Below are positions 3,109 to 22,582 of a stretch of 64,000 bases of DNA, piece after piece. The notes below the pieces were generated by a model. That model was not told the DNA's origin. It ran no database searches and saw only the letters and a program-made list of their open reading frames with translations. The stretch comes from Salibacteraceae bacterium (GTDB lineage Bacteria; Bacteroidota; Bacteroidia; Flavobacteriales_G; Salibacteraceae): contig JAGYJZ010000004.1 in assembly GCA_018401875.1 (NCBI GenBank), positions 62,001 through 126,000 on the forward strand, written 5' to 3'. Numbering within the stretch: the stretch's first letter is position 1; every line of letters begins with the position of its first letter. The position numbers and the translations under genes are program-made.

Positions 3109-4833
3109 CTATTTATCCAATTTCAGGCTTTCATCAATCCAAACTTTTCGGAAATCACGATACTCAATACTATTTTGAGGCAGTCCTTTCACGTATTTAG
3201 GAAGTAACCTGGTAAACTCTTCATAATAAAGGGGCATCACGACTGCATCATCAATTAGCATTTGATCAAGGCTGCTAAAAATTCTATACCGTGTGGTTTC
3301 ATCAAGCTCACGAATGCCCATATGGTATAGGCTGTCATACAAGCCACTATGGTAATTTACAGTATTGAGTTAGGTAGCTGACGCATCTTTCATATCATCC
3401 CCTAAAAAGAGGCACAGAAAATTCTCAGGATCGGGATAATCTGCCAACCATCCTGTTCTCCAAAAGGCTGCTTCACCATTTTCAGCATTATCCGATTGTT
3501 GGGCCATGCTTAGCACCTTAATTTCAATATTTACGTTTAAGTTTTCCTTAAGCATTTGCTGAATTACCTGAGCAATTACCTCATAGTTCTGACCACCACT
3601 TGTGGTTTCAAGAGTAACAGAAGGAAATCCTTCCCCATTTGGATAACCTGCTTGCTGAAGCAATTCACGAGCCTTCTCTGGATTGAACTCATTTCCGCGA
3701 ATGGTTTCGTGAGGATAGTTATTAAGTACTGGCGGAACGATTCCATAAATTCCCGGTGTACCTTCCCCCTGAAGTGTGTACTCAATTAAAGCTCTTCGAT
3801 CAACGGCCAGATTAAAGGCTTTTCTGATTCTAACATCTTTGAAAAGCTCGTTTGAATGCTGAAAAGCATAGTAATGAACGCTTAGAGACGGCATAACCTG
3901 AGGGCGATAGGACATGACTTCTTTTCCAGTAGTCTCATCGAGGCTTCCCATGACATCTCCGTACATGTCAATAGGAAGTGTAAAAATCATGTCCAAGTCA
4001 CCATTCTTAAAATTAAGCAACTCACTTTTTTTGTCTTTAACAAATGACATTTGCAGTGCGTCCAAATAGGGTAATGCATTTCCAAATTCATCAACGCCCC
4101 AGTAGTTTTCGTTTCGTTCTAAAACAACCAACTCGTCCCTTTGGAACACCTTTAAGAAAAACGGCCCAGTTCCAACAGCTTTGCTTGCCATTTGATCTCC
4201 GTAAGCTTCTACAGCTTCCTTTGGAAAAATATAAAACGCATTATGTCCCATCAACCTCAAGAATGAAGCAAAAGGAAAATTGAGTTTTATTTTAACTGTA
4301 TAATCGTCAACTACTTCAATACAATCGAGGGGTGAAGGATTCTCGCCATTCGATTTAGCGCTATAATATTCTTTTGCACCTTTGAGTCGCTCTCTAACCA
4401 GCCAGAACATCTGATTGTTTGCGCTTGGCGTACATAATTGCTCAAAGCAATATTGAACATCTGCAGCCTTCACTTCACGACCTTCACCGCCACTAAAACA
4501 AGCATCATCATGAAACTTCACTCCTTTTCTTAAGCGAAACGTCCATTCGGTTGCGTCTTCATTAGACTCCCAACTTTCAGCAAGACAAGGAATAGGTTCG
4601 AGCGTGGATTGATCAAATTGAACCAATCCTTCATAGACTTGGCTGGCTACTCTAAAACCCGCAACCTCAGTGATTTCAAGAGGAAAGAGGCTGCGGATAT
4701 CCATAACCTCGTTTACTCTAAAAACGCCACCAATTTGGACACCTCCCTTACCCTCACGAAAGGTGCTTTTTTGATCATTCGCACATCCAATCAAAAACAA
4801 TGCGATGACAACGGAAGTAAGTAGTCTTGTCAT
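3109..4833 (-). pseudogene. Peptide ABC-transporter substrate-binding lipoprotein (SBP_bac_5), interrupted by in-frame TAA
   Basis: The gene encodes a family 5 extracellular solute-binding protein (peptide, nickel or similar ligands). MTRLLTSVVIALFLIGC is a lipoprotein signal with Cys17 as lipidation site; upstream in-frame starts lack this. Family features include EVKAADVQYCFEQL, AVGTGPFFLKVF and RIRKAFNLAVDRRALI. Reading stops at TAA (3372-3370, codon 488), yet the same frame continues without shift as LNTVNYHSGLYDSLYHMG and on to DK at 3109, which is the expected C-terminal lobe. One substitution (for example a Tyr codon to TAA) explains it. No permease or ATPase genes are nearby. A sequencing error, decay or readthrough cannot be told apart here. 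Confidence 0.8.
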
Positions 4834-17830: not shown

Positions 17831-17960
17831 AGGTAAAACAAACGTGAGAAATATTTTAATGTAAGCGGACTTCTGGTTGGCAAAAATGAACTTCTCGCAT
17901 TGAATCAAAATGCCGGGTCTTTTCGCAATTGTTTTCAACTTCCAAGTCGAAACTAGATTT

Positions 17961-17968
17961 TACCTTTG
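17961..17968 (+). promoter_or_regulatory. Predicted -7 box of ileS operon
   Basis: TACCTTTG matches TAnnTTTG exactly, 33 bp before the ileS ATG, giving a short leader for the ileS-dksA-like-lspA transcript. Confidence 0.5.
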
Positions 17969-18001
17969 CCGCCTTTTGTAAGAATTGGCTAGAACGTTGA
18001 C

Positions 18002-21000
18002 ATGAAAGGATTTAAAGAACATGATGGGCTGAACCTGCCAAACATCGCTGAACAGGTGCTGGAAAAGTGGAAGAACGAGAAGACGTTTGAGGCGAGTATT
18101 GCAACCCGTGAAGGCGGCCCAAGCTTCGTTTTTTATGAAGGTCCACCCTCGGCAAACGGCATGCCTGGCATTCACCATGTGATGGGACGAACCATCAAAG
18201 ATTTATTTTGTCGGTATAAGACACAACGCGGTTTCCAAGTCAACAGAAAAGCCGGTTGGGATACCCACGGACTGCCTGTTGAATTAGGCGTTGAGAAAGA
18301 ACTCGGCATCACCAAAGAAGACATCGGCAAAAAAATCACCATCGAAGAATACAACAAAGCGTGCCGCGAAGCAGTGATGCGCTATACCGATGTGTGGAAC
18401 GACCTCACCGAAAAAATGGGGTATTGGGTCGACATGAGCGACCCGTATGTGACCTATGAAAACAACTACATCGAGAGCGTGTGGTGGTTGCTCAGCCAAT
18501 TGTATGAGAAGAACATGCTCTACAAAGGCTACACCATTCAACCCTACTCGCCTGCTGCCGGAACAGGACTGAGCTCGCACGAACTCAACCTGCCAGGAAC
18601 GTATAAAGATGTGAAGGATACGAGCGCTACGGCATTGTTTAAAGTAACGAGTAGTGAGTTACAAGTAGTGAGTGATGCTACTGAAAAAGGAAACTTGTTC
18701 TTCATGGCGTGGACAACTACACCGTGGACATTGCCTTCGAATACAGCCTTAACCGTTGGCGCAAACATTGACTACGTTCTTATTGACACATTTAATCCAT
18801 ATACGGCTGAAAATCAAAAAGTAATTCTGGCCAAAGCCCTTCTTACTAAGTACTTTAAAACAGACGGTTTAGAGGCAGAAATGTCTTACACACCATCTGA
18901 TAAAATGCTTCCATATCGTGTTTTGGCTTCTTTCAAAGGCTTCGAATTGGTAGGCTCTCGCTATGAACAACTGTTGCCCTACGCCCAACCTATGCGCGAT
19001 GCCGACAAAGCTTTTCAAGTGATTGCGGGCGATTTTGTGACCACCGAAGACGGAACAGGAATAGTGCACACCGCGCCAACCTTTGGTGCTGACGATATGC
19101 AAGTGGCAAAAGCTGCAGGTGTTCCACCCATGCTTGTAGAAAATGAAAATGGCGACCCTGTGCCGTTAGTTGACCTGCAGGGTCGATTTGTAATGAACGT
19201 AAACGATCCTGTGTGGGGATTGGCGGGTGAACCCGTAAAAGCGGAATATTTGAGCGATGCTGAACGCGAAGCCGCCTTTGAAAAACAGAAAGTGAGCCTC
19301 AAAGAGCACATTCCAAACCTGAGCAATTACCTCAGCGTTGACGAGCGCATCGCCTTAAAACTAAAGCTCGAGGGCAAGGCATTTAAGGTAGAGAAATACC
19401 AGCACAACTATCCGCATTGCTGGCGTACCGACAAGCCGATATTGTATTATCCGCTCGATTCGTGGTTCATTAAAGCTTCATCAGCACGGGATAAGATGAT
19501 TGCGTTGAACAACACCATCAATTGGAAACCCGAAAGCACAGGAACAGGTCGTTTTGGCAACTGGCTGGAAAACGTAAACGACTGGAACTTAAGCCGCTCG
19601 AGGTATTGGGGAACACCGCTTCCGATTTGGCGCACTGGGCCTTATGGTCCGCTGATGGAAGAGTGCGTTGGTGCCATCGCTGAATTCACCGAAAAAAATG
19701 CCTACTATATCTCTGAAGAATGCTTGGACGAAAAAGGAAACCGCTTTGATGGTCAGTCGTTGCGCAAGTATTTGGGTGAAAAACGCATGATGGGCGAAAA
19801 TGTCAACACCATTTGGAACGACCTCATCAGATCGCGAAAAATCAAAACATTCGCCTCGCTTCCTGAGGAGATGATTGACTTGCACCGACCAATGGTTGAT
19901 TATGTCATCTTTTTTAGAAACGGCCTTGTATTGGCCCGCGAACTCGATTTGATCGATGTTTGGTTTGACAGCGGTGCGATGCCGTATGCGCAATGGCATT
20001 ATCCATTTGAAGCAGGACATAAAATGCCGGATGGAAGTGTGCATCCAGCAGCTCAAGCTGCCAATGAAACCAAAGGTATGTTCGACAGCGCTTCCCCTCT
20101 TGGGAGGGGATCGAGGGGTGGGTTAGATTGGAAAGAAAAAGTCATCCCTTATGACAAAGAGTTGACAGAACGCGCACGTCAAATGCGAAACAACCCAACT
20201 GAAGGAGAACGAAATGTTTGGCAACACCTAAAAGGAAAGCAAATCGGTGGTTATGATTTTGATCGTCAAAAACCGCTTAACTCATTCATTGCAGACTTTT
20301 ATTGTCAAGAATTAAGCTTAATTGTGGAAATAGACGGGAAGTCGCACTTGAGCGAAGCACAACAGAAAAAGGACGCTGCCCGTGACAAGAAACTAGGTGC
20401 GTTAGGATTAAATACTTTGAGATTCAGTGGAGATCTGGTTCATAACAAAATAGACGAAGTTGTAGGTTGGATTCAAACCTATGTTTCTTGTTTTGAGAAA
20501 GACGATTGGAACGCATTCGAAAAAGATGGAATTAATTTTCTGAATAAATATGCTGGAAAAAACTGGAAGCCTGTTTCTGATGCTGGAAAAAACCCACCCC
20601 CTAGCCCCCTCCCTAGAGGGGGTAGCTCAACCCACCCCCTGACCCCCTCCCAAGAGGGGGAGTTAGGAATTCCATTTCCAGCCGACTTTATCGCTGAAGG
20701 CGTTGACCAAACACGCGGTTGGTTCTATACACTGCACGCCATTTCATCCATGATCAAAGGCTCGGTGGCCTTTAAAAATGTGGTGAGCAATGGGTTGGTG
20801 CTCGACAAAAACGGACTGAAAATGTCAAAACGTTTGGGGAATGGAATTGACCCATTCGAAACGCTTGGAAAGTTCGGTCCTGACGCCACACGCTGGTATA
20901 TGATTACCAATGCCATGCCTTGGGATAATTTGAAATTTGACTTGGATGGTATTATCGAGGTTCAGCGCAAATATTTCAGAGCGCTGCACAACAGTTATTC

Positions 21001-22189
21001 CTTCTTTGCGCTGTATGCCAACGTTGATAAATTCACACACGCAGAAGCTGAAATTCCGTTGGCCAATCGTCCGGAAATAGACCGTTGGGTGATTTCGCGC
21101 TTAAACAGTTTGGTAAAAGAAGTGGAAGAAGCTTTTGACAACTACGAACCCACGCGCGCTGGCCGAGCCATCCAAGATTTCGTGGTAGACGAGCTTAGCA
21201 ACTGGTATGTGCGCTTGTGCAGAAGGCGTTTTTGGAAAGGCGATTATTCTGACGACAAGATTGCCGCCTATCAAACACTATATCGTTGTCTGATTAATGT
21301 GGCAAAACTGAGTGCTCCAATCGCTCCGTTCTATTCCGATTCATTGTTCTGTGATTTGAATAACATCACAAGAAAGGATTCTGCGAATTCCGTGCATATT
21401 TCAGGGTGGCCAGCGATCAACGAATCTGAAATTGATAATGATTTGGAACAACGAATGGCCTTGGCGCAAACAGCTTCTTCACTTGCACTTTCCTTGCGCA
21501 AGAAAGAAAACATCCGTGTGCGTCAACCGCTTCAAAAAATTATGATCCCTGTGATCAGTGCGGAATTTGAAAAGCATTTGAAGCAGGTAGAAGACCTCAT
21601 ATTGAGTGAAATCAATGTAAAGGAGCTTGAATACATCAAAGATGATGGCGTTTTTGTAAAAAGCATCAAGCCGAATTTTAAAGCACTCGGACCGAAAGTG
21701 GGTAAAAATATGAAGGTGCTCGCAGGGAAAGTTGCTCAGTTTGGACAAGCAGAAATTCAACAACTTGAAACAGAAGGAAGTATTCAGCTGGACCTCGATG
21801 GTGAGCCATTTGAGCTCATCAAAGATGACGTTGAGATCAGCACCAAAGACATTCCGGGGTGGAGTGTTGCCAGCGAAGGTGCTATGACTGTGGCGTTGGA
21901 TATCACCATAAGTGATGTATTACGCTCAGAAGGCATCGCTCGAGAGTTGGTGAATCGCATCCAAAATATGCGAAAAGAGAGTGGTTTAGAGGTTACTGAC
22001 AAAATCATTCTGATGGTTGAAAAGCAAGCAGAGGTGACACGTGCAGTCGAATCCAATAAGAATTATATTTGTGACGAAACACTAGCCTCCGAGCTTTCGC
22101 TTGAAGAGGCCATCACGAACGACAAAGCAATTAACGTTGAAGTAGAGGACGGGATCTCTACTAGAATTTTTTTACAGAAAGCAGAATAA
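18002..22189 (+). CDS. ileS: Isoleucyl-tRNA synthetase carrying an in-frame DUF559 endonuclease insertion
   Basis: This class I enzyme charges tRNA-Ile and edits Val. The HIGH element is GIHH (residues 56-59) in PPSANGMPGIHHVMG, and KMSKS is KMSKR (941-944 after K940), as in Bacteroidota enzymes. The editing domain and anticodon-binding C-terminal half are intact. At 1395 residues it is some 200-250 longer than relatives, in which WHYPFE is followed after only about 10-20 residues by FPADFIAEGVDQTRGW. Here these blocks are separated by a DUF559 domain (about residues 712-830) and proline-rich segments encoded by G/C-rich palindromes. The frame stays open throughout, so the fusion is presumably translated. 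It leads an operon with a DksA-like gene (9 bp) and lspA. Confidence 0.95.
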   Translation: MKGFKEHDGLNLPNIAEQVLEKWKNEKTFEASIATREGGPSFVFYEGPPSANGMPGIHHVMGRTIKDLFCRYKTQRGFQVNRKAGWDTHGLPVELGVEKELGITKEDIGKKITIEEYNKACREAVMRYTDVWNDLTEKMGYWVDMSDPYVTYENNYIESVWWLLSQLYEKNMLYKGYTIQPYSPAAGTGLSSHELNLPGTYKDVKDTSATALFKVTSSELQVVSDATEKGNLFFMAWTTTPWTLPSNTALTVGANIDYVLIDTFNPYTAENQKVILAKALLTKYFKTDGLEAEMSYTPSDKMLPYRVLASFKGFELVGSRYEQLLPYAQPMRDADKAFQVIAGDFVTTEDGTGIVHTAPTFGADDMQVAKAAGVPPMLVENENGDPVPLVDLQGRFVMNVNDPVWGLAGEPVKAEYLSDAEREAAFEKQKVSLKEHIPNLSNYLSVDERIALKLKLEGKAFKVEKYQHNYPHCWRTDKPILYYPLDSWFIKASSARDKMIALNNTINWKPESTGTGRFGNWLENVNDWNLSRSRYWGTPLPIWRTGPYGPLMEECVGAIAEFTEKNAYYISEECLDEKGNRFDGQSLRKYLGEKRMMGENVNTIWNDLIRSRKIKTFASLPEEMIDLHRPMVDYVIFFRNGLVLARELDLIDVWFDSGAMPYAQWHYPFEAGHKMPDGSVHPAAQAANETKGMFDSASPLGRGSRGGLDWKEKVIPYDKELTERARQMRNNPTEGERNVWQHLKGKQIGGYDFDRQKPLNSFIADFYCQELSLIVEIDGKSHLSEAQQKKDAARDKKLGALGLNTLRFSGDLVHNKIDEVVGWIQTYVSCFEKDDWNAFEKDGINFLNKYAGKNWKPVSDAGKNPPPSPLPRGGSSTHPLTPSQEGELGIPFPADFIAEGVDQTRGWFYTLHAISSMIKGSVAFKNVVSNGLVLDKNGLKMSKRLGNGIDPFETLGKFGPDATRWYMITNAMPWDNLKFDLDGIIEVQRKYFRALHNSYSFFALYANVDKFTHAEAEIPLANRPEIDRWVISRLNSLVKEVEEAFDNYEPTRAGRAIQDFVVDELSNWYVRLCRRRFWKGDYSDDKIAAYQTLYRCLINVAKLSAPIAPFYSDSLFCDLNNITRKDSANSVHISGWPAINESEIDNDLEQRMALAQTASSLALSLRKKENIRVRQPLQKIMIPVISAEFEKHLKQVEDLILSEINVKELEYIKDDGVFVKSIKPNFKALGPKVGKNMKVLAGKVAQFGQAEIQQLETEGSIQLDLDGEPFELIKDDVEISTKDIPGWSVASEGAMTVALDITISDVLRSEGIARELVNRIQNMRKESGLEVTDKIILMVEKQAEVTRAVESNKNYICDETLASELSLEEAITNDKAINVEVEDGISTRIFLQKAE
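20094..20124 (+). repeat. Left palindromic end of the ileS insertion
   Basis: CCCCTC-TTGG-GAGGGG (20094-20109) forms a perfect hairpin and is followed by ATCGAGGGGTGGGTT. The reverse complement of the whole segment matches each right-hand copy at 20591-20666 with a few differences. It is translated as part of IleS (SPLGRGSRGG). Confidence 0.8.
20591..20666 (+). repeat. Right end of the ileS insertion: two tandem 38-bp palindromic repeats
   Basis: Copies at 20591-20628 and 20629-20666 both begin AACCCACCCCCT and both contain a CCCCCTC...GAGGGGG hairpin. They are inverted relative to the left end. Just upstream, ATGCTGGAAAAAAC occurs twice (20550-20563 and 20580-20593), 30 bp apart and in frame. 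Translation gives a Pro/Gly/Ser-rich linker (PPPSPLPRGG, HPLTPSQEGE). Confidence 0.8.
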
Positions 22190-22198
22190 CAGGAAGCT

Positions 22199-22582
22199 AT
22201 GGCAGAATCAGAAAAAACACGGTATTCAGACGCGGAACTACAGGAGTTTCGTGAAATAATCAATGCGAAGTTGGTAGAGGCGAAGTCAGATCTTGATCTT
22301 TTGAATTCTACCATGTCGCTCAGAGACAACAATGGTACAGACGATACTTCACCCACATTTAAGTTGATTGAAGATGGTTCTGACGTGCTTTCAAGGGAAG
22401 AAACTTCTCAGCTTGCTGCAAGACAAGAGAAGTTTATCAAGCACCTCAACGATGCCTTAGTGCGCATTGAAAATAAGACGTACGGCATTTGCAGACAAAC
22501 GGGAAAACTCATCTCGAAAGAGCGTTTGCGCATCGTTCCTCATGCTACATTGAGCATTGAAGCTAAGAACCTTCAACCTTAA
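22199..22582 (+). CDS. DksA/TraR-family protein with degenerate zinc finger
   Basis: A 127-residue cytoplasmic protein related to DksA/TraR regulators, which bind RNA polymerase in the secondary channel. It has the helical hairpin (about residues 12-95) and the C-terminal element YGICRQTGKLISKERLRIVPH, where classic family members have a four-Cys finger. Here only one Cys remains in the whole protein, so zinc binding by the usual motif is not possible; relatives in Bacteroidota share this loss as far as I recall. It lies 9 bp after ileS and 24 bp before lspA in the same transcript. Confidence 0.85.
   Translation: MAESEKTRYSDAELQEFREIINAKLVEAKSDLDLLNSTMSLRDNNGTDDTSPTFKLIEDGSDVLSREETSQLAARQEKFIKHLNDALVRIENKTYGICRQTGKLISKERLRIVPHATLSIEAKNLQP

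Follow-up and report, generated by a model that had tools for sequence, protein, structure and literature searches.

According to a review, homing nucleases occur as parts of introns and inteins or as free-standing reading frames, and it is their association with self-splicing sequences that opens highly conserved genes to their invasion (PMC3943268). In inteins that include a homing endonuclease domain, the nuclease lies in frame in conserved enzymes at recurrent sites. A DUF559 gene has been assigned to the EDxHD homing family (PMC9403480). The Caulobacter DUF559 protein VsrA is encoded by a separate gene; a DNA damage response that arises when a methyltransferase is missing is attributed to it, and a role in mismatch repair has been proposed for it (PMC12907096). 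Palindromes lying in frame in protein genes are described as Rickettsia palindromic elements and REPs. According to PMC3733652, such elements sit in tRNA synthetase and repair genes too, add inserts of 20-82 residues and have in some cases products reported as expressed, and no catalytic domain is named there. PARCEL repeats are palindromic coding elements inside ORFs for which horizontal spread is suggested; they are 25-residue amphipathic repeats without a nuclease (PMC2996958).

The window, i.e., the whole stretch of 64,000 nucleotides analysed here (Salibacteraceae bacterium, assembly GCA_018401875.1, contig JAGYJZ010000004.1), contains an ileS gene with an unusually long internal loop (Table 1). 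The ORF at 18002-22189 (+) is uninterrupted over 1395 codons and scores 916.8 bits against the ileS profile across its two halves (cut-off, 621.4). Pfam recognizes tRNA-synt_1, DUF559 (residues 720-827), Anticodon_1 and DUF5915 in its product, and the DUF559 match (PF04480) reaches 96.5 bits against a curated cut-off of 20.6, which bears out the first-pass annotation in its description of a DUF559 domain inside a stop-free ileS. The same annotation had expected a short loop after HYPFE, and this loop, up to ADFIAEG, was indeed found to be 10-12 aa long in 15 of the 16 compared genomes (12 aa in 10 genus relatives and 10-12 aa in five other family members) vs. 223 aa here, a net gain of 211 aa over the nearest relatives. 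The exception is the genus relative G004, with 35 aa and a solo hairpin; another genus relative, G008, was excluded from the empty-site count because nothing matched at the ileS site there. A second intact ileS, which the annotation had named among the findings that would undo its account, was not found by profile in the 82%-complete assembly.

Table 1. Features of the ileS gene and its insert; positions are those of the window.
Feature	Positions	Strand	Remarks
ileS with in-frame passenger	18002..22189	(+)	1395 aa; sole IleS found in the assembly
Expanded loop, HYPFE to ADFIAEG	20012..20680	(+)	223 aa
Left linker AGHKMPDGSVHPAAQAANETKGMFDS	20012..20090	(+)	Outside the repeats; start resembles the G004 loop
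Left end: palindrome CCCCTCTTGGGAGGGG plus GAGGGGTGGGTT	20091..20124	(+)	Inverted relative to the right end
DUF559 nuclease domain, residues 720-827	20159..20482	(+)	D765, E776, D778 and H782 kept
C-terminal extension (WNAFEKDGINFLNKY...)	20483..20590	(+)	Start similar to the DUF559 passenger of L039
Right end, inner hairpin copy	20591..20622	(+)	Inverted-repeat comparison
Right end, outer hairpin copy	20629..20662	(+)	88% complementary to the left end over 34 nt

Each end of the insert bears a hairpin of the type CCCCTCTTGGGAGGGG, flanked by GAGGGGTGGGTT or its complement. The stretch 20091-20124 is inverted and 88% complementary over 34 nt with respect to 20629-20662, and 20094-20124 pairs with 20591-20621 at 81%. 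These inverted palindromic ends were absent from the first-pass account, which had nevertheless made palindromes a point on which the mobility of the insert would turn. Within 20090-20666, the ileS frame is the only open one, the other five frames having 7-16 stops each, and none of 2000 shuffled versions of this stretch was open; the open frame is therefore not due to chance. The linker and hairpin stretches are likewise in frame and without stops. No ATG, GTG or TTG occurs in frame from the left hairpin to the DUF559 core, and the first in-frame start codons of the insert, TTG and ATG, both lie within the core; the window's nuclease would therefore most simply be made only as part of IleS. 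In having palindromic ends in frame inside an ORF, the insert agrees with the PARCEL repeats and with RPE/REP-type elements, and in-frame REPs and Rickettsia palindromic elements are its nearest precedent. Unlike the latter, as presented in PMC3733652, and unlike the nuclease-free PARCEL repeats of PMC2996958, it is neither short nor devoid of a protein domain, its net gain including a nuclease of a type under selection between the palindromes.

The DUF559 domain was modeled well (mean pLDDT, 86.6), and a model of IleS residues 200-1395 built with eight sequences was poor (mean pLDDT, 47.8), so that the surface loop proposed by the first-pass annotation is a putative placement. Foldseek found the nearest solved structures of the domain to be NGO0050 (3hrl) and then the homing endonuclease I-Bth0305I (3r3p_B: E 4.1e-4, probability 1.00, TMq 0.62), and a sequence profile of the domain returned the same two structures (3hrl, 3.6e-30; 3r3p, 3.2e-7). 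D765, E776 and D778, correctly singled out by the annotation as kept, are invariant together with H782 in 63 of 63 aligned DUF559 domains. The predicted structure and the profile agree with the EDxHD homing endonuclease catalytic fold, and because of these fold and profile matches and the EDxHD assignment in PMC9403480, a homing-type nuclease, EDxHD/Vsr-like, is the favored, model-based identity of the window's domain. No long DNA-binding extension of the kind found in I-Bth0305I was recognized in the passenger, in which respect the two differ. The domain is also the one found in VsrA, which, unlike the passenger, is a separate gene with a proposed mismatch repair role (PMC12907096). PADLOC models of defense nucleases gave weak partial matches only (best E, 2.7e-6).

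Empty sites, which the annotation had proposed to look for, are present in close relatives, and not every member of the genus carries the insertion. The window's gene groups in the IleS tree with those of G011 and G006 (100/100), and since these two nearest genus relatives have empty sites, the insertion looks recent. The IleS of G004 groups with empty-site G009 and G007 (95/92), and its solo hairpin matches the left end of the window's insert exactly over 24 nt; either the loop would have been hit twice within one genus or the loop was exchanged. An odd flank consisting of E-x-GH-x-x-P-x-G and LGIP is common to the loops of the window (20012-20090) and G004 (L012) and absent from the other 28 IleS loops compared. 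The two genes are not sisters despite this unusual flank, which local recombination between the two lineages, similar to co-conversion, or losses in the sisters would explain. Searches of 35 genomes of the family and 395 of the class gave no other clear carrier of this flank, and with G004 set aside, they brought up no outstanding match that could be the source of the left linker. The same architecture was found at the same IleS loop in ten other IleS genes, one from cultured Marinilabilia salmonicolor (L127). Insertion points within one loop vary by a few codons, as would be expected of a tolerant region more than of an exact homing target. The window's copy, in a quickly built tree of 132 DUF559 domains based on few columns and with 55 of 129 forks open, falls with standalone copies (SH-aLRT 97), together with the passenger of L039, a helicase-like protein from the same family as the window's genome. 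The other ten IleS-loop passengers lie apart from it, which points to colonization of the IleS loop by unrelated DUF559 lineages. One ancient IleS insertion common to all carriers was considered and rejected on the basis of the grouping with standalone copies, with the reservation that applies to so quick a tree.

Passengers of this kind are spread over many hosts in Bacteroidota. DUF559 is present in 182 of the 395 class genomes, and the frequency of embedding can be read only from the best 150 listed matches in them, 80 of which lie in frames of at least 300 aa and 66 in frames of at least 700 aa. Named genomes were scanned as well (577 relatives), and the best 80 that were kept include cultured Cellulophaga, Gillisia, Marinilabilia, Flavobacterium and Winogradskyella; Cellulophaga baltica carries its passenger in LeuS and Winogradskyella sediminis in MetH. 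The hosts scoring above their curated NCBIfam cut-offs are LeuS, MetH, IleS, acetate-CoA ligase, RecG and RecJ; an RluA-type host scored under its cut-off, and no host family was among the NCBIfam results for L059. Pfam adds a UvrD-type helicase, RdgB/Ham1, adenine deaminase, CoA-transferase and DegT aminotransferase, and by our own reading, PP2C/SpoIIE, Lhr-type helicase, HsdR, IcmF, ValS, MetG and a PKD-type protein are putative further hosts. Among 133 unique ORFs, the largest host groups are LeuS (47), MetH (16, a cluster in which L141 and L166 are not clear MetH), IleS (12 counting the window, with 11 inserted at the loop that is occupied in the window) and RecG (nine). This set is biased, its loci having been mostly picked for long frames or found by an embedded-copy query, and the figure of 122 out of 133 obtained from it should not be read as a frequency. 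In some ORFs, the domain is terminal and not internal: it precedes the other domain in L077 (RluA-type) and L155 (guanylate kinase) and follows it in L072 and L163.

The LeuS genes illustrate how occupancy varies. The 30 best-scoring LeuS genes, taken from 141 genomes with a match, include four with a passenger in the editing-domain loop and two with a different peptide there. Within one genus, a second LeuS site is occupied in G077, G116 and G180 and empty in G149. The different in-frame peptide, HPELVSGSDNEMLKQVQHD, was observed in L238 (G158) and L244 (G126), and the loop holding it is the one used by DUF559 passengers in other genomes. In one of the four passenger-bearing genes, from G096 (L247), LeuS is split into two frames near the passenger end, which may reflect a sequencing error or a decaying passenger.

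Standalone DUF559 copies were also found, comprising 27 frames at 25 loci that are apparently intergenic as judged from flanking frames and not from homology. An ATG stands near the domain start in 23 of the 27, and hairpins of the same kind were seen by eye in most of the flanks. For embedded copies, an ATG lies near the domain start in 52 of 116 and some start codon in 82 of 116; in some of them, the nuclease may also be made alone. Loss of the start codon was tried as a general mark of passengers and rejected on the latter count. The flanks of 114 embedded copies had an inverted-repeat score higher than every same-gene control in 84 cases, and in 70 cases, the score surpassed the 95th percentile of the control maxima. 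In a comparison of each copy with 20 shuffled versions, end repeats stood out in 36 of 50 embedded copies and in four of five standalone ones.

The in-frame nuclease insertion with mobile-element ends is thereby confirmed as real and as one member of a large pattern. A search of open PubMed Central papers returned no account of DUF559 passengers inside enzymes. The claim of the first-pass annotation that a mobile nuclease persists in frame in an indispensable gene is supported by the empty sites, the palindromes, the lack of fixation and the single ileS found in the 82%-complete assembly. We consider it fairly probable that the insert is a mobile element, namely, a DUF559 homing-type nuclease with REP-like hairpin ends that is lodged in a tolerant IleS loop and stays in the protein. 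At the level of sequence, the empty sites of the nearest relatives, the inverted palindromic ends, the intact catalytic residues, the same architecture in many core genes, the purifying selection on passengers of other hosts and one clear case of movement or conversion between paralogous genes argue for this reading. Its mobility would be driven by its own nuclease or by a Y1 transposase, and the insert would be kept in the protein without splicing. A hairpin-ended unit would enter DNA at tolerated sites, and in essential genes, only in-frame, stop-free copies would survive. The nuclease would then cut empty alleles or paralogues, and repair from the occupied copy would amount to homing. No intron or intein would be needed because the host loop tolerates a folded domain, and the essential host gene would protect the element from loss. 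A broader proposal is that these passengers form a homing class without intron or intein, in which an unspliced folded passenger in tolerant loops of essential enzymes across Bacteroidota cuts insert-free alleles and paralogues and mobilizes REP-like hairpins as its non-autonomous offspring; we put this forward tentatively, as possible but on the whole doubtful.

An alternative is that a RAYT/Y1 transposase inserts REP-like hairpins in coding loops and that DUF559 is a cargo entering via the hairpins and not the driver. Of the four Y1_Tnp genes of the window's genome, one shares the window's contig at a distance of approximately 118 kb, and the remaining three are on different contigs. Hairpin-rich genomes, defined by five or more hairpins, number 24 of 149; all 24 have Y1_Tnp, compared with 90 of the 125 others, so the hairpins may be moved by Y1. 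Solo hairpins would also fit such a transposase, including the one in G004 in the same IleS loop, with its identity to the window's left end, and two of the window's type that lie in frame in a single protein of the window's genome, as would the LeuS-loop peptide of two genomes, which we take to be palindrome-encoded. The DUF559 data point the other way. DUF559 is present in 23 of the 24 hairpin-rich genomes (83 of 149 overall), and within Y1-bearing genomes, it still splits hairpin-rich from hairpin-poor ones (23:1 vs. 50:40, P = 1e-4), whereas the effect of Y1 within DUF559-bearing genomes is borderline (P = 0.055); both tests are uncorrected for phylogeny and concern one hairpin pattern that is absent from the window's genome. 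Moreover, G004 with its solo hairpin has one DUF559 and no Y1_Tnp match, and selection acts on the nuclease frame of passengers. Taken with this evidence, the cargo explanation appears unlikely. The protein with two in-frame solo hairpins (L055; hairpins at 4186 and 4435 of contig C1) is 855 aa long and PKD-type by our own reading, and the hairpins occupy similar positions within its repeats.

Of 16 passenger pairs, five were saturated, and the 11 in which dS could be measured gave a passenger dN/dS of 0.06-0.14; ten of these 11 pairs are within the same host gene and one is of two paralogues, and the window's copy is in none. Host dN/dS is 0.02-0.09 where measurable, and the passengers are somewhat higher. 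Purifying selection thus acts on passengers outside the window's gene. This selection, together with the single tree group formed by the nine RecG passengers (support 77), would also be expected if the nuclease domain had been recruited for a host function, e.g., regulation or DNA/RNA quality control by fused enzymes. Such recruitment is very unlikely, as the hosts are unrelated (synthetases, MetH, helicases and adenine deaminase), presence and absence vary within genera, and the copies have mobile-element ends, the standalone ones lying near hairpins of the same kind.

Site labels on the domain tree are clustered, with 41 changes vs. 85.6 in shuffles, the labels being automatic and calling L164, a LeuS second-site case, 'other'. 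Passenger and host identities are correlated in RecG (0.70) and LeuS (0.38), so vertical inheritance is probable for many copies; the IleS correlation of 0.29 is weak and lacks significance (108 of 999). Passenger dS is lower than host dS in nine of nine pairs with both finite, most strongly in RecJ (0.45 vs. 1.30), and these values suggest that the exchange of passengers postdates the divergence of their hosts, although base composition could contribute to the difference. The clearest single case of apparent transfer, by movement or by conversion between paralogues, is that of L043 and L049, paralogues in one genome that are PP2C/SpoIIE-type by our own reading. Their elements are identical at 392 of 410 bases, and beyond the right hairpin, identity is 48 of 60 immediately past it and 236 of 407 further out; the L049 contig begins at the element, which leaves the left boundary invisible there. 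The pair is suggestive of homing into an insert-free allele. Among 155 elements, no recent jump between unlike host genes was found, the best 40 listed different-host DNA matches reaching only approximately 76% identity. Overall, the pattern would be one of within-site inheritance plus occasional moves, with some loops reused.

Pfam found no intein family in the insert, DUF559 being the only match, which agrees with the annotation's statement that intein splicing motifs are missing; splice-junction residues were judged by eye. Rfam gave no group I or group II intron match up to E 1 across 17900-22300. The further claim that the element is distinct from inteins and homing introns stands as far as their parts are concerned, which are absent, but not for the nuclease itself, whose nearest folds include a homing nuclease. 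The passenger resembles inteins with homing endonuclease domains in being a nuclease in frame in conserved enzymes at recurrent sites; unlike in inteins, a splicing domain was not found, and the product would retain the insert. It likewise differs from the homing enzymes covered by the review (PMC3943268) in that no splicing element was found here. Removal of the insert by a novel protein splicing, RNA splicing or ribosome bypass would be helped by the complementary ends, which could draw the junctions near each other in RNA, and is most improbable in view of these negative results and of linker and hairpin stretches that are in frame without stops. An assembly or chimera artifact, for which the draft state (36 contigs, 82% complete) and the lack of reads might speak, is scarcely credible, given that the sequences on the two sides make up a single gene in a shared frame and that ten other IleS genes, as well as other hosts, show this architecture, cultured strains included.

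The comparison as a whole suggests a selfish element whose survival within indispensable proteins does not depend on splicing. If the passengers are retained in the protein, they would constitute a large exception to the self-splicing rule set out in PMC3943268. If true, even the most conserved enzymes can conceal a nuclease that uses a tolerant loop. This would account for odd insertions in Bacteroidota synthetases, provide protein engineers with natural maps of loops that tolerate insertions and yield testable candidates for the mover of REP-like palindromes in Bacteroidota.

Two further loci were observed among the passengers. In L175, an RdgB/Ham1 with a DUF559 passenger runs on in frame into a PorZ-type propeller protein. 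A LeuS passenger was also found in a record named Candidatus Paceibacterota (L108), outside Bacteroidota, which would be due either to transfer or to mis-binning.
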